Of a DNA stretch of 59,862 bases, positions 3,676 through 17,711 are shown piece after piece (the first letter of the stretch is position 1; each line of letters begins with the position of its first letter). A model generated the notes under the pieces. It was not told the DNA's origin. It ran no database searches and was given only the letters and a program-made list of their open reading frames with translations. The DNA is from Rhodospirillaceae bacterium bin65. Its GTDB lineage: Bacteria > Pseudomonadota > Alphaproteobacteria > Bin65. A program made the translations under genes and the position numbers. Location: NCBI GenBank assembly GCA_002238725.1, contig MPMX01000025.1, positions 1-59,862 on the forward strand, given 5' to 3'.

Positions 3676-5412
3676 TCATCGGGGAAGGTAGTGCGGATAA
3701 TCGGGCAGTTCGCCCAGCAGATGGCGGCACAGCAGGCGCGCCTGGAGCAGCAGAAGCCGCCGCATGCTGAGCCGGTAGCCGAACAGCGGGTGGGTGGTTT
3801 CCTGAGAGAGCCGGCGCTCGAACGCGCCGACGAAACGGCGGCGCCCTGCTTGTGTCAGGGACGTGCCGGTGGGAGCGCTGACGAAGTCCCCCGGCGAGAC
3901 CTCGCCGGTGTTGACCGCCGACAGGACCACCGAGTCCGCGATGATCGGCCGAAACGGCTCCATCACGTCGAGGGCGAGCGCGGGCTTTCCGTATCGCGGC
4001 GCATGGAAGAAGCCCCGATAGGGATCGAGACCAACCGTTGCTAGCGCGACGGTCAGATGGCGCGTCAGCATGGCGTATGCGAGCGACAGCATGGCATTTA
4101 CGGGATCGGTCGGAGGACGCCGGTTGCGGGCGTCGAAACGGAACGGCGCCAAGCTATCCCCAGCTTCCGCCGATTCCTTGGTGCCCGGTGGCGTCAGTAG
4201 ATCGGAAAATGCACGGAAGTACGTTGCTGCCGCGTCCCCTTCCAGTCCGAGCAACGCGCTCACCGCAGTCGCGCGCTTCGTCGACCTCCGGGCGGCGTTG
4301 AGCCGGTCCAGCACGACCTTGCGCTGCTCGCGGTCGCCGCGCCAGTTTCGGCGCACAATGGTCCGCTGGTTCACGATCTTCGCGGCGACCAGATCGCGGG
4401 CGAAGGCCAGGCAATAGGTAGGGTCGAAGCTGCGCTGGTACTGCGCCGTTCGGACTTCCACATTGCGGTGGCCAACTCCGTGGGCGATGCCCCGAAACCA
4501 GCCGCCATGGCTGTGGAAGGCGACCGGGATTTCGCGGTCCATGAGCGTGACAAGCGCGGGCGTGGTGATCGAGACGTTCCCGAACAGCGCCACGTCGGAC
4601 ACATCGTTCAATCGCACGGTGGTATCGCCCTGCTCTTCGTCGGCGATCTTGAGGGTTTCGCCTTCCTTCGAAACACGCGCCCTCTGCGACTGGACGATCA
4701 GCGGCAAGGCCTCGTCCGCCCCGATGGCGATGGGGCGGGGCGCCAGATCGGAGCCCCCGAGCGCGCGCATCTCGTCCGGCAGGCAAATGGACACGAGCGC
4801 ACAGCGCGGGCATTTCGGGCTGTCCCGTAAGGGTGGCGGAATACGGCCGTGGGCCACCGTCAGACGGAGCCGGCTCACCGCCTCCCGTGCGGCGAGGCGG
4901 AGTTCATCGTCCAGCGCAATCCGGACCCGCTCGCGGCTCTCGGCATACCAGATGGCGCCTTCCTCGACCCTGTAGCCGTGCTCTTCGAGCAGCAGCGCCT
5001 GAAGGCAAACCTGGACACGCTCCGGCTCGTAGGCCCCCTTCTCGACGTGGGGCCGCTTTCCGCGCTTATAGTCGACCGGCGTAACCGCGCCGTCCTCGGC
5101 CTCGGCAATGTCGATTTTCGCGATAACACCGAGCTTCTCGGACGAGAGCGTCAGAGAGCGGCTGACAACCTTGGTATCGTCGCTCTCCAGAGCTTCGGGA
5201 TCTGGCAACGGTTTGTTGGGTCGGTCGACCCGAGTATGCACCCGCCGCCCGTCCACAGTGTCGCCGGTCTCCGCCCATTCGGCCTGACCCCACATGAGAT
5301 AGGCGAGGCGCGGGCAATAGACGAACTCGTTCACCATCCTTGCCGGGACCAGCGGATGCTCGCCGGTCGCGGACGGCGCGGGGAGATGAAGTTCCAACTG
5401 GGAGGGAGGCAC
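3676..5412 (-). CDS. cas4-cas1: Cas4-Cas1 fusion protein
   Basis: Adaptation enzyme of 578 residues. Residues about 1-225 are a Cas4 RecB-like nuclease. It has the iron-sulfur cysteines at C33 (YCPR), C201, C204 and C210 (KCPRC...SIC), and nuclease residues around D101 and D114-Y-K116, followed by QVCLQALLLEE. Residues about 235-578 are Cas1, with metal-binding E391 (GLEGDAA), H470 (GFFHAPRYG) and E485 (DVMEPFRP). This fusion is characteristic of type I-U/I-G; in Geobacter sulfurreducens it selects TTN motifs during spacer acquisition. The gene begins 5 nt after the Cas8-like gene ends. All catalytic residues I looked for are present. Confidence 0.96.
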   Translation of the reverse strand: MPPSQLELHLPAPSATGEHPLVPARMVNEFVYCPRLAYLMWGQAEWAETGDTVDGRRVHTRVDRPNKPLPDPEALESDDTKVVSRSLTLSSEKLGVIAKIDIAEAEDGAVTPVDYKRGKRPHVEKGAYEPERVQVCLQALLLEEHGYRVEEGAIWYAESRERVRIALDDELRLAAREAVSRLRLTVAHGRIPPPLRDSPKCPRCALVSICLPDEMRALGGSDLAPRPIAIGADEALPLIVQSQRARVSKEGETLKIADEEQGDTTVRLNDVSDVALFGNVSITTPALVTLMDREIPVAFHSHGGWFRGIAHGVGHRNVEVRTAQYQRSFDPTYCLAFARDLVAAKIVNQRTIVRRNWRGDREQRKVVLDRLNAARRSTKRATAVSALLGLEGDAAATYFRAFSDLLTPPGTKESAEAGDSLAPFRFDARNRRPPTDPVNAMLSLAYAMLTRHLTVALATVGLDPYRGFFHAPRYGKPALALDVMEPFRPIIADSVVLSAVNTGEVSPGDFVSAPTGTSLTQAGRRRFVGAFERRLSQETTHPLFGYRLSMRRLLLLQARLLCRHLLGELPDYPHYLPR

Positions 5413-9328: not shown

Positions 9329-10771
9329 TCAGCCTACCAGACCGCGGCAGAGGCCGAGGCCGGTAAACCGGCCGGCGCCAAGGAGGACGGGGCCGCGTAC
9401 ATCCTGCTCGAACTCGATGACGGCATGAACAAGCGGCCGACTCGAGAGCGATTTCGGGGCCTTCCATTGGGCCCATGGAGGCTCTCCCGCCAAGGGGCGC
9501 GCGGGCGGCATCCCGTCGATTGCCGAATGCTTGCCGACTTGGATTCGATCCGTATCAGGCCGCGGCAGTCCTGCGTGCTCACAAGCGTTCGCGACAAGCT
9601 CCCGTTTCTCAGCCTCGCCCTTCCGCTTGAGATGCCGTTCCAGCACGATCGGTGTAACGCTGGCCCAGACGCGCGAAGACTCCAGATAGGGTCCAATCGA
9701 AAGGGACCGCCTTCGCGTGCCTTCGTCCGGGGCAGGCGCCAAGCGCAGTGGCTCGTTCAGGGGCGGTCCTTCCAATGTCAGAACGCGCCGTTCCGTGACC
9801 TGACGGTATGGCGCGACGCTCTCGAACGCCGCACGAAGTCCCTCGATACCGTCCAGGGCCGTCCCGCGCGGGGGAATCAGGGCGAAACCGAAGACACGCC
9901 CATCGGCGTGGGGAAAGCCGGCAAATGCCATCGGCGCGATCGCGAGATGGGGATGCCGGGTCGGTGCGCCTTCCGACGTATGACCCGAGATTTCCTCCGG
10001 TATGGAGTCCTCCCGACCAGCCTTGCGATAGCCGCTCATCAGGGTCTGCCTCAGCAAGCGGCAAACGAGGGAGGCTGCCCGGATGTCGGGAACCGCACCC
10101 TCGACCGCCTCCAGCACCAGCCAGTCGCTGGACAATTCAGAAGTCGAGGATCGCTGAGCGAAATTGGGCGCACCGGGACGGATCGACGGGCGGACAGGGT
10201 TCGTGCGATGCGCCACTTCCAGTTCGCGCAACCGTCCGGGATAGACGCGTCGGCGGGCGAGTCCGGCCGGATGTCTGAACGCCACGGTCCTGCCTGAAAG
10301 GAACCGGCACCGTGTCAGGCTCGCCGAATGGCCGACGTAGCCGATATCCCGCGCCATCGCGTCCAGCGCATCGAACACAACGGGCTCGGGCTCTTCAGGC
10401 CATGCAAGCATCACCAGCGGATCGTCCGGACGCGCGACGGGAAAGCGGCGTGGTTGGCGCGGACGTCGCTCAGGCATCACCTTGATGTACGTGTCCGCCG
10501 CTCTCGACGCCCTGGAATCGTTCGGCGGCACGTACACGTCGGGCGTTGTCCGGGAGGTGTGATCGCTCGCGTGAATGGCTGGAGCGGGCTGCTGTTCCAG
10601 CCACTCCAGCGCGGTCCGTTCCTCCGACCTTTCACCTCGGGCGGCCCAGGCGGATACCAGCGCAGAGAAAACCCGGTCCGGCTGTGGAGGCCAGTCTGGC
10701 GCGTCGTCTCCCGGTTCTCGCGCCGCGCGACAGACGCCGGTCAGGAATTCCATTTCGAAGATGAGGCTCAT
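9329..10771 (-). CDS. csb2: Csb2, Cas5-Cas6 fusion of type I-G
   Basis: 480-residue RAMP-type protein (GSU0054-like). In type I-U/I-G this protein combines the Cas5 role at the 5' handle with the Cas6 role of cutting the repeat hairpin. The N-terminal half has the typical start (IFEMEFLTGVCRAA) and the run HPHLAIAPMAFAGFPHADGR around the middle. The C-terminus ends with the glycine-rich loop GPVLLGAGRFTGLGLC expected of Cas6-like RAMP proteins. It overlaps csb1 by 4 nt. Its presence matters for the degenerate mini-array upstream: the conserved hairpin there is the structure this enzyme would be expected to recognise. Confidence 0.9.
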   Translation of the reverse strand: MSLIFEMEFLTGVCRAAREPGDDAPDWPPQPDRVFSALVSAWAARGERSEERTALEWLEQQPAPAIHASDHTSRTTPDVYVPPNDSRASRAADTYIKVMPERRPRQPRRFPVARPDDPLVMLAWPEEPEPVVFDALDAMARDIGYVGHSASLTRCRFLSGRTVAFRHPAGLARRRVYPGRLRELEVAHRTNPVRPSIRPGAPNFAQRSSTSELSSDWLVLEAVEGAVPDIRAASLVCRLLRQTLMSGYRKAGREDSIPEEISGHTSEGAPTRHPHLAIAPMAFAGFPHADGRVFGFALIPPRGTALDGIEGLRAAFESVAPYRQVTERRVLTLEGPPLNEPLRLAPAPDEGTRRRSLSIGPYLESSRVWASVTPIVLERHLKRKGEAEKRELVANACEHAGLPRPDTDRIQVGKHSAIDGMPPARPLAGEPPWAQWKAPKSLSSRPLVHAVIEFEQDVRGPVLLGAGRFTGLGLCRGLVG

Positions 10772-12012
10772 TCTCCGTCCTCGCCTTCGCTACCCTGGCC
10801 TTCCAACGCCAGTTGACGGCTGCTGCGGACGATCTCGACAAGCTTGTCCTGGGGCCTGAGAGTCAGCGACCGAAACCTGAAGCCCGTCGCCTCGGCTTCC
10901 GCATAAGCCCCCCGATACAATGCTTGCACTGCCGTACGGTCGAGTTCGAACTCTTCCGTCGAGCCGTCAGCGCGCACCATTGCAAGCGGCCCGGCTCCAT
11001 CACAGACCAGATCGCAACGAGAGCGCAGGGCGTAACCGCGTGCATCCTGTTCGGCCAATGCTACGAGCCCGAGAGCCGCAATCAACGCACGCCCCGTGGC
11101 GTCCCGTTCGCCGCCGCCGAAACGCAACCTTCTCAGTCCGGCCAGAGTGATAGTAGCCCGATGTTCCGCGTGGTCGCAGGTCACACCGAGAGGCTCGACG
11201 CTCGGTGCTATGTTGCTGTGGTTTATCTCGGAAGGACGAACCAACTTGGCGCCCTTTCCGGCCGCGCTCTTGTCTGTACTCCAATTGGAGACAGACGCGC
11301 CCTTGTATACTTCCACATTCCGAAGGATGCCCAGCGGATCGATCCGGCTCCCCGTTCGCCGGCCTGCGGTTCGAGACTCGACTTCGCCGGTACGCGGATC
11401 GGCGGGGCCATCCTCGACCGGTGCGTCGATACCCATGATTTCGGAGACGAGCGCACGCGGGAATTTGGCCCCAAGGCCACCGCCTTCTCCCTGGCTGTGC
11501 CAGGCTCCGAACAGCAATGCAGCCGGAGACAGTTCCAGCAACGCCGTCGCATCGGCGGGCTTCGCAGCTGCAAGGCGTTGACCCTCTTCGCTCTGCATGA
11601 AGGGGGTGCTTTCCAGGAAACTGTCGCGAAGGATGGCGTCATAGACACGATGCGGCGCATCCAGTGAAGTGATCCGCTCCAGAGGCTCCAGCCCCTCGCC
11701 GCGAAAATCCACTGTGATGTACGGCAGCGGTATCAGCCCGTCGCCGCTACCTTCCTCGGCGGCAGCCAGCAGCGCTTCTTCCATCCGGTTTGCCTGGCTC
11801 TGAACGCTGTCGATCAGTACACACCAGACCTCCTCGCGACCAACGCGCCGCCGTTCGAACACATGCCGTGGCGGCGCCCCTCGGCGTGCGGGCGGATAGG
11901 TCGGAGGAAATATCTTGTCTCCTGGCCCTCCAATCGGCTGAAGCCGCCGGAGGCGGCGAATTGCAGCATCCTCATGGACTGCACGTTTCAGGGCTTCCAG
12001 ATCGATTGTCAT
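10768..12012 (-). CDS. csb1: Csb1 (Cas7) backbone subunit of type I-G
   Basis: 414-residue GSU0053/Csb1-family protein, the repeated backbone subunit that coats the crRNA spacer. Recognisable parts are FERRRVGREEVWCVLIDSVQ near the start, SQANRMEEAL, the ALLFGAWHSQG segment, and NHSNIAPSVEPLGVTCDHA in the C-terminal half. The start is an ATG whose first bases overlap the stop of the small gene upstream (ATGA), so translation of the two is probably linked. It is the first large gene of the cas operon, so its level would respond directly to the promoter at 12246-12275. Confidence 0.93.
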   Translation of the reverse strand: MTIDLEALKRAVHEDAAIRRLRRLQPIGGPGDKIFPPTYPPARRGAPPRHVFERRRVGREEVWCVLIDSVQSQANRMEEALLAAAEEGSGDGLIPLPYITVDFRGEGLEPLERITSLDAPHRVYDAILRDSFLESTPFMQSEEGQRLAAAKPADATALLELSPAALLFGAWHSQGEGGGLGAKFPRALVSEIMGIDAPVEDGPADPRTGEVESRTAGRRTGSRIDPLGILRNVEVYKGASVSNWSTDKSAAGKGAKLVRPSEINHSNIAPSVEPLGVTCDHAEHRATITLAGLRRLRFGGGERDATGRALIAALGLVALAEQDARGYALRSRCDLVCDGAGPLAMVRADGSTEEFELDRTAVQALYRGAYAEAEATGFRFRSLTLRPQDKLVEIVRSSRQLALEGQGSEGEDGE

Positions 12013-12212
12013 CGTTTGTTTCTCCGCTCGATCATGCCGACAGGCCGGTCGCTCTGATCGAGCGGTTCCTTATCGGCTTTGGGCCATCGGGAGTCCCCAG
12101 CCGGCCGGTATGGCGGCGTGTCGGGCTCGATGTCGTAGTCCACGTTCTCGGTCGACACGCATATCCGTTCGACCCTGAGCGCGGCATATGTTGTACGATG
12201 GATCCGGACCAC
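12009..12212 (-). CDS. Small protein at the head of the type I-G operon
   Basis: A 67-residue reading frame starting at a GTG at 12212, with AGAGGTG six bases upstream, and ending in a 4-nt ATGA overlap with csb1. It sits about 27 nt downstream of the predicted cas transcription start, so it is the first translated unit of the operon. A longer form from the ATG at 12275 is excluded because that codon lies in the -35 box. The product is basic at both ends with an acidic, proline-rich middle (YDIEPDTPPYRPAGD). I recognise no domain. It may be a leader peptide coupling translation into csb1, or a small effector-associated protein. Confidence 0.6.
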   Translation of the reverse strand: MVRIHRTTYAALRVERICVSTENVDYDIEPDTPPYRPAGDSRWPKADKEPLDQSDRPVGMIERRNKR

Positions 12213-12239
12213 GATGCTCACCTCTTGGTGAATGCGACT

Positions 12240-12275
12240 GGAGATGCTATATGGGAACCGAAGGAGAAATGTCAA
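12240..12275 (-). promoter_or_regulatory. Promoter of the cas operon
   Basis: On the minus strand TTGACA (12270-12275) is followed after 18 nt by TATAGC (12246-12251), a strong vegetative-type promoter. The expected start is near 12239, leaving a short leader to the ribosome site and the GTG at 12212. No other promoter is needed for the tightly packed genes down to cas2. The -35 box lies inside the 40-nt stretch to which the degenerate mini-array spacer partly matches. Confidence 0.8.
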
Positions 12276-12299
12276 CCCCTATAACCCCACAAATATAGC
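12260..12299 (-). promoter_or_regulatory. Partial protospacer for the CreR-like RNA, over the cas -35 box
   Basis: Read on the minus strand from 12299, GCTATATTTGTGGGGTT aligns with the mini-array spacer start GCTATGTTGGTAGGGTT at 14 of 17 positions. Mismatches are at 6, 9 and 12; position 18 also differs. Positions 6, 12 and 18 are the bases flipped out in type I effectors, so only position 9 is a true seed-region mismatch. The three bases 5' of the protospacer are TTA, fitting the TTN motif of type I-U/I-G. Beyond position 18 the match disappears, as expected for binding without cleavage. The full footprint (about -21 to -60) covers the -35 box. Confidence 0.8.
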
Positions 12300-12332
12300 T
12301 AAGACGATTCCTGTTTCGAGCTCAATCTGCGA

Positions 12333-12441
12333 TGATGACGGTTCGGCGGAAGCAGGCCGCATTGAAGCGCTATGTTGGTAGGGTTGCCCGTGCGTTCCAT
12401 TCGGGCATGCTTCCGGGCCGCAAGGCCCGGCTTCATTGGAC
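12333..12441 (+). ncRNA. Degenerate repeat-spacer-repeat mini-array (CreR/CreA-like RNA)
   Basis: Two imperfect copies of the CRISPR repeat flank a 40-nt spacer (12369-12408), on the strand opposite to the main array. The first copy ends at 12368 and matches the last 16 nt of the repeat at 14 positions, with the handle CATTGAAGC exact; its upstream half is decayed. The second copy (12409-12441) keeps a strong hairpin (CCGGGCC, GCAA loop, GGCCCGG) but its tail is altered (CTTCATTGGAC). This is the split expected if only a 5' handle and a 3' processing hairpin are needed. A hairpin with arms TTCCGC/GCGGAA (12465-12479) lies downstream but has no U-tract. I see no strong promoter; TATAGC at 12294-12299 or TATAAC at 12280-12285 may serve. 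Confidence 0.8.
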
Positions 12442-12590
12442 TACCGAAATCCGTCGCTCGATCGTTCCGCAACGCGGAATTCACGCTCCAATTCCACCAA
12501 CTTTCCTCACCGACACCCTTGGCGAACCTGTGCTATTCACATGACGCGCACATGAGCGTCGACAAATGACGGTGCCCGGATGGAATCCGC

Positions 12591-14969
12591 ATGAATGAGG
12601 CCGATACCTGCCGGAAGTACGTCGTTCCCAAGCTTCAAGCGGCGGGCTGGGACGAGCGCCCGCATGCGATCAACGAGCAGAGAACCTTCACCGACGGCAG
12701 GGTCGTGTTCGTTGGCGGCAAGGCGCGGCGCGGCAGACAGAAGCGCGCGGACTATCTTCTCCGATACCGTCCAGACTTCCCGGTCGCCGTCGTCGAGGCG
12801 AAGGCGCGCTACAAGCACGCTGCGGAGGGCCTTCAGCAGGCCAAGGACTATGCTGAAACCCTTGGGCTGCGCTTCGCCTATGCCACCAATGGCGACGGGA
12901 TCGTGGAGTTCGATTACACCACGGGCATCGAGCGCGCGGTCACGGAATTTCCGACGCCGGAAAACCTCTGGACCCGCCTTCGCGACATCGACGGCCCGGA
13001 CGACGATCTGGCAGCCCACCGCCTGCTCACCCCGACATTCCCGGACCGCACCAAGCCGCTGCGCTATTACCAAGAGATAGCCGTCAACCGCGCTGTCCAA
13101 GCGGTCCTGCAAGGACGCAGACGGGCACTTCTGACTCTCTGCACCGGTGCGGGCAAGACAGCAGTCGCCTTTCAAATTTGCTGGAAGCTCTGGCAGGCGC
13201 GTTGGAACGCCAAGGGCGACAACCGGAGGCCGAAAGTCCTGTTCCTGGCGGACAGGAACGTTCTCATCGACGATCCCATGGCAAAGGACTTCTTCCCTTT
13301 CGGTGAGGCGAGGCACAGGATCGCGGGCGGCCGCGCGGTGAAGAGCCGCGACATCTATTTCGCGACTTACCAGACAATGGCGGAAGACGAGAGCCGGCCC
13401 GGCCTCTATCGTGAGTACGCCCGAGAGTTCTTCGACCTGATCGTGGTGGACGAGTGCCACAGGGGCAGCGCGCGGGAGGACAGCGCCTGGCGTGAAATTC
13501 TGGAATGGTTCGAGCCCGCAACCCAAATCGGGATGACCGCGACGCCACGCCGGGAAGAGAACGCAGATACTTACGCCTACTTCGGCGATCCGCTCTACCT
13601 ATACAGCCTAGCCCAGGGCATCGCCGACGGCTTCCTGGCGCCCTACCGGGTGCACCGCATCATAACGGACTACGATTCCGCCGGCTGGCGTCCCACTAAG
13701 GGCGAACTCGATCGTTACGGGCGCGAGATTCCGGACGCCGATTACGGCACGGCGGACTTCGAGCGGAAGGTGGCGTTGCGCGCCCGGACGCAGGCCATCG
13801 CCCGCCACCTCGCTAGCTTCATGGCCCAGACGGACCGCTTTGCGAAGAGCATCGTCTTTTGCGTCGATCAGGAACACGCGCTTGAGATGCGTTCGGCGCT
13901 TGCTGAACTGAACGCCGATCTGATGAAGGATCACCCGGACTATGTGTGCCGCGTGACGGCCGATGAGGGCCATGTGGGAAGCGCCCACCGGGAGAAGTTC
14001 CAGGACCTTGAGACGCAGACTCCAGCGGTTCTCACCACGTCGCAGTTGCTGACGACGGGTGTCGACGCGCCGACCTGCAAGAACGTAGTGCTTGCCCGAA
14101 TGGTTGGCTCCATGGCGGAGTTCAAGCAGATAATCGGACGCGGCACTCGCCTCCGGCCCGACTATGGAAAACTCGCATTCAACATCATCGACTACACGGG
14201 CACGGCGACGCGCATGTTCGCGGACCCGGCCTTCGACGGCGAACCCGTCCGCGAAGGCGAAACCGTGATCGACGCTGAAGGGGAGACCGTCGGGACGGAG
14301 GAAGGAGAGGACGCCGCTCCCGACCCCGACGACATAGGAGACGACCCGTGGGTTACTCCCGACGACGGAGCGACGCAGGGTGAGGGCGACGATCCCGGTC
14401 CGCGCAAGTTCTATGTGGACGGTGGGGAGGTCGAGATCATCCGGCATCTGGTTTACGAGCTCGATGCGGACGGGCGGCGGCTGACGTGCAAGCATCTGAC
14501 CGACTACACCGGCGAGAAAGTTCGCACACTCTACCCAAACGCCTCCGAGCTTCGAGCGGGCTGGCTTGATCCGGAACGCCGGGGCGAGATCGTCGAGCGG
14601 CTCGAAGAGGTTGGAATCGACCTTGCCATACTGGCCGAGGCCGCGGGAAGGCCGGAAGCGGACGAGTTCGACCTTCTCTGCCATCTGGCCTACAACACAC
14701 CGCTCCGGACCCGCCGCGAGCGCGCCGACAAACTCCGGCGGGAGCAACACGACTTCTTCGCCCGTTTCGGCTCAGAGGCCCGTGAAGTCCTTGATGCCGT
14801 CATCGAGAAATATGCGGAACACGGCAGCGCCCAACTCAAACTGCCTGACGTCCTCGAAGTGCCGCCGCTTAGCGAGTGGGGCAACGTGATCGAGCTCTCG
14901 GCCCGCTTCGGCGGAAGCACGGCATTGCGCCGCGCGGTCGTCGAGATGCAGTCTCTGCTTTACGCTTGA
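12591..14969 (+). CDS. hsdR: Type I restriction enzyme, R subunit
   Basis: 792-residue motor-nuclease of a type I restriction-modification system, which translocates and cuts DNA lacking the host methyl mark. The N-terminal nuclease shows D54 and E69-A-K71. The helicase part shows Walker A LCTGAGKT (183-190), DECH (287-290), GMTATP (near 312) and the late motif QIIGRGTRLR. The C-terminal part (YELDADGRRLTCKHLTDYTG onward) is the typical EcoEI-type tail that contacts the methylase. The ATG at 12591 has only a weak ribosome site. It heads an hsdR-hsdM-hsdS operon divergent from the cas operon; the 315 bp between them hold the mini-array and its target. Confidence 0.95.
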   Translation: MNEADTCRKYVVPKLQAAGWDERPHAINEQRTFTDGRVVFVGGKARRGRQKRADYLLRYRPDFPVAVVEAKARYKHAAEGLQQAKDYAETLGLRFAYATNGDGIVEFDYTTGIERAVTEFPTPENLWTRLRDIDGPDDDLAAHRLLTPTFPDRTKPLRYYQEIAVNRAVQAVLQGRRRALLTLCTGAGKTAVAFQICWKLWQARWNAKGDNRRPKVLFLADRNVLIDDPMAKDFFPFGEARHRIAGGRAVKSRDIYFATYQTMAEDESRPGLYREYAREFFDLIVVDECHRGSAREDSAWREILEWFEPATQIGMTATPRREENADTYAYFGDPLYLYSLAQGIADGFLAPYRVHRIITDYDSAGWRPTKGELDRYGREIPDADYGTADFERKVALRARTQAIARHLASFMAQTDRFAKSIVFCVDQEHALEMRSALAELNADLMKDHPDYVCRVTADEGHVGSAHREKFQDLETQTPAVLTTSQLLTTGVDAPTCKNVVLARMVGSMAEFKQIIGRGTRLRPDYGKLAFNIIDYTGTATRMFADPAFDGEPVREGETVIDAEGETVGTEEGEDAAPDPDDIGDDPWVTPDDGATQGEGDDPGPRKFYVDGGEVEIIRHLVYELDADGRRLTCKHLTDYTGEKVRTLYPNASELRAGWLDPERRGEIVERLEEVGIDLAILAEAAGRPEADEFDLLCHLAYNTPLRTRRERADKLRREQHDFFARFGSEAREVLDAVIEKYAEHGSAQLKLPDVLEVPPLSEWGNVIELSARFGGSTALRRAVVEMQSLLYA

Positions 14970-14985
14970 TCCGCAGGAGACTCGA

Positions 14986-16551
14986 TTGGCACGAACCTCC
15001 CGAAAGAAGGCTGCGCCGAAGCAAGTGACCACGGCCCAGCGCCTCGACAGCATCGTCAAGTCCGCGCGCAGGGTCATGCGCAAGGACAAGGGCCTGAACG
15101 GCGATCTCGACCGCCTGCCCATGCTGGCCTGGATCATGTTCCTGAAGTTCCTCGACGACATGGAACGCGTCGAGGAAGAGCGCACGACGCTTGCTGGGAA
15201 GGGCTATCGCCCAATCGTCGAGCCGCCCTACCGTTGGCGTGACTGGGCCGCCGACGAGGATGGCGTCACCGGACCGGACCTCCTCGCCTTTCTTTCCGCC
15301 GAGCATTCTGAACGCCCCGATGGAACGCAGGGTCCCGGCCTTTTTGCCTACCTTCGCGCCCTTCGCGGCGACAACGGGGAACGCGAACGGCGCGATGTGG
15401 TCGCCACCGTGTTCCAGGGCTTTGCCAACAGGATGGAGAGCGGCTACTTGCTCCGCGACGTGGTGAACCTGATCGACGGCATCCACTTCGACTCCTCCGA
15501 GGAGGTCCATGTCCTGGGCCGCCTCTATGAAACGCTCTTGCGCGAGATGCGCGACGCCGCCGGCGACTCCGGCGAGTTCTATACCCCCCGGCCCGTGGTG
15601 CGCTTCATGGTCGAGGCGCTCGACCCGCAATTGGGAGAGACCGTTCTCGACCCGGCCTGCGGCACGGGCGGCTTTCTGTGCGAGGCGTTCCAGCACCTCG
15701 AACCGCACGCCGATACCGTCGAGAAGCGACGGGTGCTTCAGCAGGAAACCTTGATCGGGGGTGAGGCGAAGTCGCTGCCCTTTCTGCTTGCGCAGCTCAA
15801 TCTCCTGCTCCACGGCCTCCACGCGCCGCGTATCGACCCCGGCAACGCGCTGCGCTTTCGCCTATCGGAGATCGGCGAAGGACAACGGGTGAACGTGATC
15901 CTGACTAACCCGCCCTTCGGCGGCGAGGAAGAGGCAGGCATTCTCAACAACTTCCCCAAGGACCGGCGCACGGCGGAGACGGCGCTATTGTTCCTTCAGC
16001 TCATCATGAGGCGGTTGAAGCGCGCCGGGCGCGGCCGCGCCGCAGTCGTCGTGCCGAACGGCACGCTGTTCGGTGACGGCCTCTGCGCCCGAATCAAGGC
16101 TGACCTGCTGGAACGGTTCAACCTGCACACCGTCGTCCGCCTGCCCGAGGGCGTGTTCGCTCCCTATACAGACATCCCGACGAACCTGATCTTTTTCGAC
16201 ACGACCGGCCCGACCCGCGAAATCTGGTACTACGAGCAGTCCCGGCCCGAGGGGCGCAGGAAATATTCCAAGACTGCGCCCCTTGCTTATGAAGACCTCG
16301 CCTCCTGCCGTGCTTGGTGGAGCGACCGGGAAGAGAATGAGCGTGCCTGGAAGGTCTCTGCCGGGGGGCTCATTCGGCGTGACAAGGAGGGTCGTGCCAC
16401 GGCCTGCAACCTCGACGTCAAGAATCCCCATACAGGCGAGGTGGAGGACCGCCGCGAGCCGACGGAGATCGTGGACGCGATCATCGAACGCGAACGCTCC
16501 ATCCTGTCCCTGATGGACGAGATTAAGTCCGAGTTGGCAGGACGTGCGTGA
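14986..16551 (+). CDS. hsdM: Type I DNA methyltransferase, M subunit
   Basis: 521-residue N6-adenine methyltransferase subunit. The helical N-terminal domain (QRLDSIVKSARRVMRKDKGL) precedes the catalytic domain. That domain has the S-adenosylmethionine motif DPACGTGGF (222-230) and the catalytic NPPF (308-311). I take the TTG at 14986 as start because AGGAGA sits six bases upstream. It begins 16 nt after hsdR ends and its TGA overlaps the hsdS ATG by one base, so the three genes form one operon. All key motifs are intact. Confidence 0.95.
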   Translation: MARTSRKKAAPKQVTTAQRLDSIVKSARRVMRKDKGLNGDLDRLPMLAWIMFLKFLDDMERVEEERTTLAGKGYRPIVEPPYRWRDWAADEDGVTGPDLLAFLSAEHSERPDGTQGPGLFAYLRALRGDNGERERRDVVATVFQGFANRMESGYLLRDVVNLIDGIHFDSSEEVHVLGRLYETLLREMRDAAGDSGEFYTPRPVVRFMVEALDPQLGETVLDPACGTGGFLCEAFQHLEPHADTVEKRRVLQQETLIGGEAKSLPFLLAQLNLLLHGLHAPRIDPGNALRFRLSEIGEGQRVNVILTNPPFGGEEEAGILNNFPKDRRTAETALLFLQLIMRRLKRAGRGRAAVVVPNGTLFGDGLCARIKADLLERFNLHTVVRLPEGVFAPYTDIPTNLIFFDTTGPTREIWYYEQSRPEGRRKYSKTAPLAYEDLASCRAWWSDREENERAWKVSAGGLIRRDKEGRATACNLDVKNPHTGEVEDRREPTEIVDAIIERERSILSLMDEIKSELAGRA

Positions 16552-17711
16552 TGGAGTGGCCTCTATCGCCAATTTGCGAGATCGCGCGCCCGATCAACCG
16601 GAAAGTTATAGTTGATCCTGAGAAATCATACAGACTTCTGGGAATGCGATCACGAATTGGTGGTCCATTTATACGTGAAACAAAGCTCGGCACTGAGATT
16701 TCCGCCTCTACCTTGAACAGGGTGGAGGTCGGAGACTTTATTTACAGTAGGCTCTTCGCGTGGCAAGGGTCGTTTGGTGTTATTCCACAACAATTCGACG
16801 GTGCGTTTGTTTCGGGTGAGTTTCCAATCTTCGAGGTCGATCCAGCGAGAGCAGACGCTCGTTTTCTCGTTTTTTGGTTTGGTCTTCCGGAATCACAGAA
16901 GATCGTAGAGGCGGATTGCTTCGGTTCGACACCGGGGACACGCAACCGCTACAAGGAAGCGTATTTTCTTAATCTCTCAGTTCCCCTTCCGCCTCTCGAC
17001 GAGCAGCGGCGGATCGTGACGCGGCTCGACCGTATAGCAGAGTTGATCGAAAAGCGGCGGCAGGCCATCGCCGCCTCCGAAGCGGAGCTGCAAGCTCTGC
17101 TATCCAAGGCATTCAAACGCGCAATCCATCGCACTCCTCTACGATCCATGGCCGAGGTTGCGCCCCTTGTGCGTCGCCCGGTCGAGATCGAGCCAGACAA
17201 AAGCTATCCCGAACTCGGCGTTCGCTCGTTCGGGCGGGGAACATTCCACAAACCCGCGCTGGACGGAGCCCAAGTCGGCACGAAGAAGCTCTTTCATATC
17301 GAACCCGGCGACCTCGTATTCAACATTGTGTTCGCGTGGGAGGGCGCGGTCGCCGTCGTGCAATCGGATGACAAGGGCCGGGTTGGTTCTCATCGATTCC
17401 TGACATGCGTAACCGCGCCCAATACCGTAACAGCGGATTTCCTGCAGTTTTACTTCCTTACGCACGATGGCTTGCAACAGCTGGGAGAAGCCTCGCCGGG
17501 TGGAGCCGGCAGAAATCGTACACTCGGCTTGAAGAAGCTTGAAGCTATCAAAGTCCCGGTACCACCGATTGGCGTGCAACACTGGTTCGATCATCTTCTG
17601 GCCAAGGCGTATCGAGTGCGGCGCATCCGCGACGGGACCGCTCAAGACATCGACGCCCTACCGTCCGCCATGCTTCGCGAAGTGTTTGGAGGGGGAAATG
17701 CGATGCTTTAG
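16551..17711 (+). CDS. hsdS: Type I restriction specificity subunit
   Basis: 386-residue DNA-recognition subunit with two target-recognition domains. The first half runs to about residue 145 and ends in the conserved helix region PLPPLDEQRRIVTRLDRIAELIEKRRQ. The second half has a similar layout ending in VPVPPIGVQHWFDHLLAKA. Both halves contain a TK or GTKKL strand followed by GDF/GDL, showing internal duplication. Its base composition is visibly lower in G+C than hsdR and hsdM around 16600-17000, as expected for exchangeable specificity domains. The ATG overlaps the hsdM stop. Confidence 0.93.
   Translation: MEWPLSPICEIARPINRKVIVDPEKSYRLLGMRSRIGGPFIRETKLGTEISASTLNRVEVGDFIYSRLFAWQGSFGVIPQQFDGAFVSGEFPIFEVDPARADARFLVFWFGLPESQKIVEADCFGSTPGTRNRYKEAYFLNLSVPLPPLDEQRRIVTRLDRIAELIEKRRQAIAASEAELQALLSKAFKRAIHRTPLRSMAEVAPLVRRPVEIEPDKSYPELGVRSFGRGTFHKPALDGAQVGTKKLFHIEPGDLVFNIVFAWEGAVAVVQSDDKGRVGSHRFLTCVTAPNTVTADFLQFYFLTHDGLQQLGEASPGGAGRNRTLGLKKLEAIKVPVPPIGVQHWFDHLLAKAYRVRRIRDGTAQDIDALPSAMLREVFGGGNAML

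Follow-up and report, generated by a model that had tools for sequence, protein, structure and literature searches.

The window, as we call the whole stretch of DNA analysed (59,862 nt of contig MPMX01000025.1 from Rhodospirillaceae bacterium bin65), carries a type I-G CRISPR-Cas locus. The cas genes were arranged in a predicted operon in the order 67-aa ORF, csb1, csb2, cas3, 326-aa protein, cas4-cas1 and cas2, which was followed by the main CRISPR array. The genes, with the family profile matched where one is given, and the array are:

12009..12212, minus strand: 67-aa ORF that starts with GTG and opens the predicted operon
10768..12012, minus strand: csb1 (cas7), TIGR02570
9329..10771, minus strand: csb2 (cas5-cas6), TIGR02165
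6395..9325, minus strand: cas3, TIGR02621
5418..6398, minus strand: 326-aa 'Cas3-extension' protein, predicted short Cas8g
3676..5412, minus strand: cas4-cas1 fusion, NF049935
3370..3672, minus strand: cas2, TIGR01573
286..3104, minus strand: main CRISPR array with 39 identical repeats and 38 spacers

The type I-G gene set was recognised by family profile matches, csb2 being present together with csb1, cas3 and cas4-cas1, and the spacers of the main array were 36-40 nt long. The 'Cas3-extension' family has at least 2230 homologues and is, by its predicted fold, a putative short Cas8g; for the 326-aa protein the fold match covers residues 9-383 in a chain of 649 residues. No match was found when solved structures were searched by sequence with this family and with csb1, and a csx17 search of the genome likewise gave no match, its control search being uninformative. 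The 67-aa ORF shares 4 nt (ATGA) with csb1, an overlap that was conserved, and has eight homologues with 70-85% identity; a Pfam search with the copies from the window and from a related locus, L007, returned no family above the cut-off. Divergent from the cas operon, 12591-17711 holds a type I restriction gene for an EcoAI-like R subunit, followed by ORFs that by eye resemble M and S subunits.

Upstream of the cas operon and on the opposite strand, a mini-array spanning 12333-12441 was found:

12333..12368, plus strand: R1, a degenerate CRISPR repeat as aligned to the main-array repeat, whose 3' end retains the handle CATTGAAGC
12369..12408, plus strand: single spacer of 40 nt that matches the predicted cas promoter over positions 1-17
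12409..12441, plus strand: R2, a degenerate repeat that folds into a 7-bp hairpin with a GCAA loop and has a decayed 3' handle

The handle CATTGAAGC ends at 12368, the spacer starts directly after it, and the predicted mini-array RNA would carry a ATTGAAGC handle, from 12361. R1 and R2 are unlike each other and unlike the 39 identical main repeats, which sets the mini-array apart from an ordinary defence array with its identical repeats. CreRs are mini-CRISPRs that lie beside cas genes, and the element agrees with this description, being a mini-CRISPR with degenerate repeats that adjoins the cas operon. The fold of the whole mini-array RNA was not more stable than those of shuffles (z -0.56). 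A consensus promoter scan found no promoter near the mini-array, and the same scan also missed the cas promoter, in which the -10 is just 4/6. The site matched by the spacer and its surroundings are as follows:

12283..12299, minus strand: target, running from 12299 to 12283, matched at 14/17 with mismatches at 6, 9 and 12
12300..12302, minus strand: PAM TTA (TTN)
12260..12299, minus strand: expected 40-nt effector footprint, inferred from the spacer length, which would cover the -35
12270..12275, minus strand: -35 TTGACA of the predicted cas promoter, starting at footprint base 25
12246..12251, minus strand: best -10, the -10-like TATAGC (4/6), at a spacing of 18

The original prediction had claimed a 14/17 match between spacer positions 1-17 and this site with the next mismatch at 18, a TTA flank fitting TTN, and a 40-nt footprint over the -35 box, and all of these were borne out by the recomputed alignment. 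As in a CreR, the spacer is thus partly complementary to the predicted cas promoter, at a site with the PAM of the subtype. It had further been claimed that the mismatches follow the flip-out periodicity; this holds for 6 and 12 and fails for 9, which is not a flipped-out position, so that the flip-out rule accounts for two of the three mismatches.

The match was rarely approached by chance. The shuffle check suggested with the prediction came out in its favour, as none of 10,000 shuffled spacers (5,000 mononucleotide and 5,000 dinucleotide) reached 14/17 with a TTN flank in the region 12013-12590. The best shuffled spacers with TTN reached 13/17, in 6 mononucleotide and 4 dinucleotide shuffles, and when the TTN requirement was dropped, 14/17 was attained by 8/5,000 and 9/5,000, respectively. 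No main-array spacer had 14/17 with TTN (0/38), the best reaching 12. Across the 59.9-kb window, 14/17 matches were located at one site with TTN and at four without, and TTNGCTATNTTNGTNGGGTT, the target with 6, 9 and 12 left free, occurred a single time in the 4.29-Mb genome, at the promoter site, compared with 0 occurrences of the backwards control.

To follow the pair through evolution, we examined 78 related loci from a csb1 search of genome contigs. Three of them, L007, L009 and L011, with csb1 80%, 71% and 72% identical to that of the window, share its anatomy, including the mini-array, the TTN, the target, the -35 and a 67-69-aa ORF overlapping csb1 by ATGA. The R1 handle region is kept as ATTGAAG or ATTGCAG in these three, and R2 folds to a 6-7 bp hairpin in all four loci. 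Their spacers differ from that of the window at 7, 5 and 2 of the 17 positions, and the targets shift in step: pairwise spacer differences among the four loci are 2-7/17, and each spacer matches its own target at 14-15/17. Positions 1-5, 7, 8, 10, 11 and 13-17 are paired in 4/4 loci, and at six of these (1, 2, 4, 10, 13 and 15) the changes are compensatory, the letters varying with the pairing kept. The pairing state varies at the flipped-out bases 6 and 12 alone, and 9 is mismatched in every locus. The PAMs are TTA, TTT, TTG and TTA, and the -35, counted from target base 1, starts at base 25, 24, 20 and 26 (window, L007, L009 and L011, respectively); the 40-nt footprint would include the -35 in the three relatives as well. 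A shorter case was observed in L012, where 11 matched bases follow TTA upstream of TTGACC.

Complementarity conserved among orthologues, the absence of which had been named as evidence against the prediction, was found in part: covarying pairs were present in L007, L009 and L011, but four of the seven loci with csb1 of at least 70% identity (L008, L010, L020 and L027) had no pair under the definition used in the survey described below. The equivalent region of L010 contains other ORFs, one of them with a weak, below-cut-off antitoxin match.

For the wider survey, three of 79 csb1-upstream regions were dropped (L039, L047 and L067, <600 nt upstream), leaving 76 regions of at least 600 nt with 95 handle-adjacent spacers. 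A pair was defined by at least 13/17 matched positions, a TTN flank and intact positions 1-5. Such pairs were found in 14/76 regions (15 with TTN and no condition on 1-5), compared with a mean of 0.07 and a maximum of 1 in shuffled regions (60 rounds) and 0 in 39 rotations of swapped regions. Unfiltered matches of at least 13/17 were found in 20/76 regions, versus 4.5 expected from shuffled and 3.9 from swapped regions, which indicates that the TTN and 1-5 filters matter. Matches lacking the TTN flank also occur in other loci; L020 contains many matches among tandem repeats, and L015, L055, L058 and L069 have matches at other offsets only. Upstream of csb1 in L003 (2823-2945), a pair of 16/18 with a TTT flank and a mismatch at 3 was observed. 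Further sources of csb1 were viral contigs (2 distant relatives), plasmids (21 records, four regions examined) and whole genomes (few).

The mismatch statistics were based on 15 pairs, the 14 survey pairs and one from a plasmid (L097), with L048 (mismatch at 2), L003 (mismatch at 3), L012 (11 nt only), and L014 and L046 (12/17) excluded. These pairs contain 42 mismatches in positions 6-17, of which 21 are at 6 or 12, a number as high being reached in 0/200,000 permutations. With the window clade (the window, L007, L009 and L011) collapsed to one, 18 mismatches remained at 6/12, again with 0/200,000 permutations as high. This pile-up is the 5+1 pattern described for the type I-G effector in PMC9638904. 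Position 9 was mismatched in 7/15 pairs (p 0.0016 when 6 and 12 are kept constant, and 0.016 when a count this high is allowed at any position), but in 4/12 with the window clade taken as one locus (p 0.35), which is no enrichment. Since the enrichment rests on one clade, we dropped position 9 as a selected mismatch and treat it as tolerated, not proven selected. Position 15, mismatched in 5/15 pairs, was not significant (p 0.26). Clear cas-promoter cases among the 15 pairs are confined to the window clade, which supplies four.

Pairs at other sites were varied. In L060 (2063-2650), the mini-array is located in the leader of a gene with a PIN domain (PF13470, E 2.2e-19), with the target 63 nt upstream and 16/17 matched, the mismatch being at 12; the arrangement resembles that of a protein toxin under CRISPR repression, here within a type I-G locus. 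The target in L019 (1700-1930, Alicyclobacillus acidiphilus) covers, as read by eye, the -35/-10 of a hydrophobic short ORF that lies before csb1 and has a terminator-like hairpin; L019 was therefore rejected as a cas-promoter case, the sequence placing its target at that ORF and hairpin. Pairs at other small ORFs were found in L037, L038 and L043, and the layout of all five loci is like that of CreTA or CrePA. In an Azospirillum locus (L014, 2001-3000), the site of a 12/17 match with a TTT flank is followed by a strong ribosome-binding site and by a tiny ORF that has a terminator-like hairpin, an arrangement that is CreT-like by eye. In L040, L048, L051 and L097, the mini-array was seen by eye inside the presumed csb1 5' leader with the target just upstream, which is possibly a second layout of autorepression. 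The set of 15 is completed by the pairs of L042, L072 and L078.

The spacer-promoter match and its joint change in three relatives make it likely that the RNA guides the Cas complex to silence its own genes. We therefore propose, with a probability of roughly 85%, that the mini-array specifies a CreR, and that this crRNA-like RNA would direct the type I-G effector to repress its own cas operon. The autorepression suggested by the original prediction thus gains support from the match, the PAM, the chance tests and the covariation, all of them evidence at the level of sequence.

Pairing with sites at non-cas ORFs in other type I-G loci (L060, L019, L037, L038 and L043) would also suit a CreTA-like addiction, in which the 67-aa first ORF is a toxin driven by the promoter and repression of Cas is a by-product. 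In 4/4 loci, however, this ORF overlaps csb1 by ATGA, so that its product would be made whenever Cas is made, and neither the window copy nor the L007 copy matches a Pfam family above the cut-off; such an addiction appears very improbable here. Another reading takes the mini-array as a self-limiting guide, which mainly represses its own divergent promoter and affects the cas promoter through overlap only. The position of the target between the mini-array and the operon is consistent with it, as are L048, L078 and L097, in which the pair seems by eye to lie at the mini-array's own promoter. We regard it as highly unlikely for the window clade, given that in 4/4 loci the cas -35 begins at base 20-26 as counted from target base 1 and that the promoter scan lists none toward the mini-array from 12240 to 12340.

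The degenerate repeats and the absence of the pair in 4/7 near relatives are what might be expected of a functionless relic, a decayed array remnant whose likeness to the promoter arose by chance or from an accidental self-spacer. Against this stand the compensatory changes at six positions, with the handle, hairpin, PAM and geometry kept, and the chance tests with shuffled spacers, with shuffled or swapped regions and with the genome-wide pattern. A chance or relic origin was rejected on the basis of the shuffles, the covariation, the region survey and the genome-wide target count, and is hardly credible.

The preferred reading, that of a CreR, can be compared with known systems. The CreR concept reportedly goes back to Liu et al. 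2023 in Cell Host Microbe. Haloarchaeal CreA belongs to type I-B, and the guide in Cas9 autorepression is the long-form tracrRNA; the effector there represses its own expression by an RNA guide with short pairing, as proposed here, and the guide here would come from a mini-array instead. This type II autorepression is relieved by anti-CRISPRs, and CreR autorepression via partial promoter complementarity is known in I-B, I-E and V-A, according to PMC13131331. The predicted element would share with these CreRs a crRNA-like RNA, a partial cas-promoter match and autorepression by the own effector; it differs in that it lies in type I-G, outside the three subtypes named in that text, and is known from covariation rather than experiment. 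A review calls CreR widely distributed in Type I and states that CreRs are relieved by competing crRNAs and anti-CRISPRs (PMC12737573). As described for CreA in PMC8501985 and PMC10097628, the repeats flanking the spacer are degenerate, and the spacer partly matches a PAM-flanked site that lies at a promoter or just downstream of one; CreA represses a toxin, whereas the promoter targeted in the window is predicted to drive the cas operon. In haloarchaeal CreA, any mutation in 1-5 or 7-11 abolished function and 6 and 12 were free (PMC8501985). The window clade likewise has 6 and 12 free but leaves unpaired in 4/4 loci the position 9 that this CreA needs paired. I-F CreA pairs at 17/20, not at 6, 11 and 18 (PMC10097628).

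Among the type I subtypes, I-G is described as the least well understood in PMC9638904, which reports an effector with a TTN PAM, an 8-nt handle and a flipped sixth base, and with Cas3 as a stable subunit. The locus resembles the system of Thioalkalivibrio sulfidiphilus treated there in its Csb1 (Cas7), Csb2, Cas3 and predicted Cas8g, TTN PAM, 8-nt handle and 5+1 pairing, and differs in that the Cas8g of the window is predicted to be short (326 aa). A literature search found no CreR in type I-G; the founding paper (Liu et al. 2023) was outside its scope and may hold such a prediction. What appears to be new here, as supported by the sequence comparisons, is the extension of the CreR principle to type I-G, for which natural covariation provides the evidence.

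In the mechanism that we propose, the mini-array RNA would be transcribed, processed and loaded into the effector, which would then bind in the promoter region along three blocks of Cas7 size (1-5, 7-11 except 9, and 13-17), cover the -35 and block RNA polymerase. Binding would occur without cutting, because pairing extends over just 17 of the 40 nt, with a gap at 9. With Cas3 as a stable effector subunit in type I-G, it is less evident than in other systems that the effector would bind and not cut, which counts against the mechanism. By analogy with known CreRs, repression may be eased by crRNAs from the array that compete for the Cas proteins, or by anti-CRISPRs that take the effector away, and the supply of Cas would thereby follow demand.

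A broader generalisation, which we offer as speculative and rather doubtful, is that type I-G systems of many phyla use crRNA-like guides as promoter switches, on cas in the window clade and on toxin-like genes elsewhere, with a pairing code of their own in which three Cas7 blocks pair, 6 and 12 are free and a tolerated gap at 9 prevents cutting by the Cas3-bearing effector. If the reading of the window is true, crRNA-like self-control reaches type I-G, in which Cas3 belongs to the resting effector. The coevolved guide-promoter pairs would then be targets with which to ask how such an effector can bind and yet not cut, and which base pairs it needs, and a supply of Cas that is released upon loss or inhibition of the effector would matter for anti-CRISPR work and for type I-G genome engineering.
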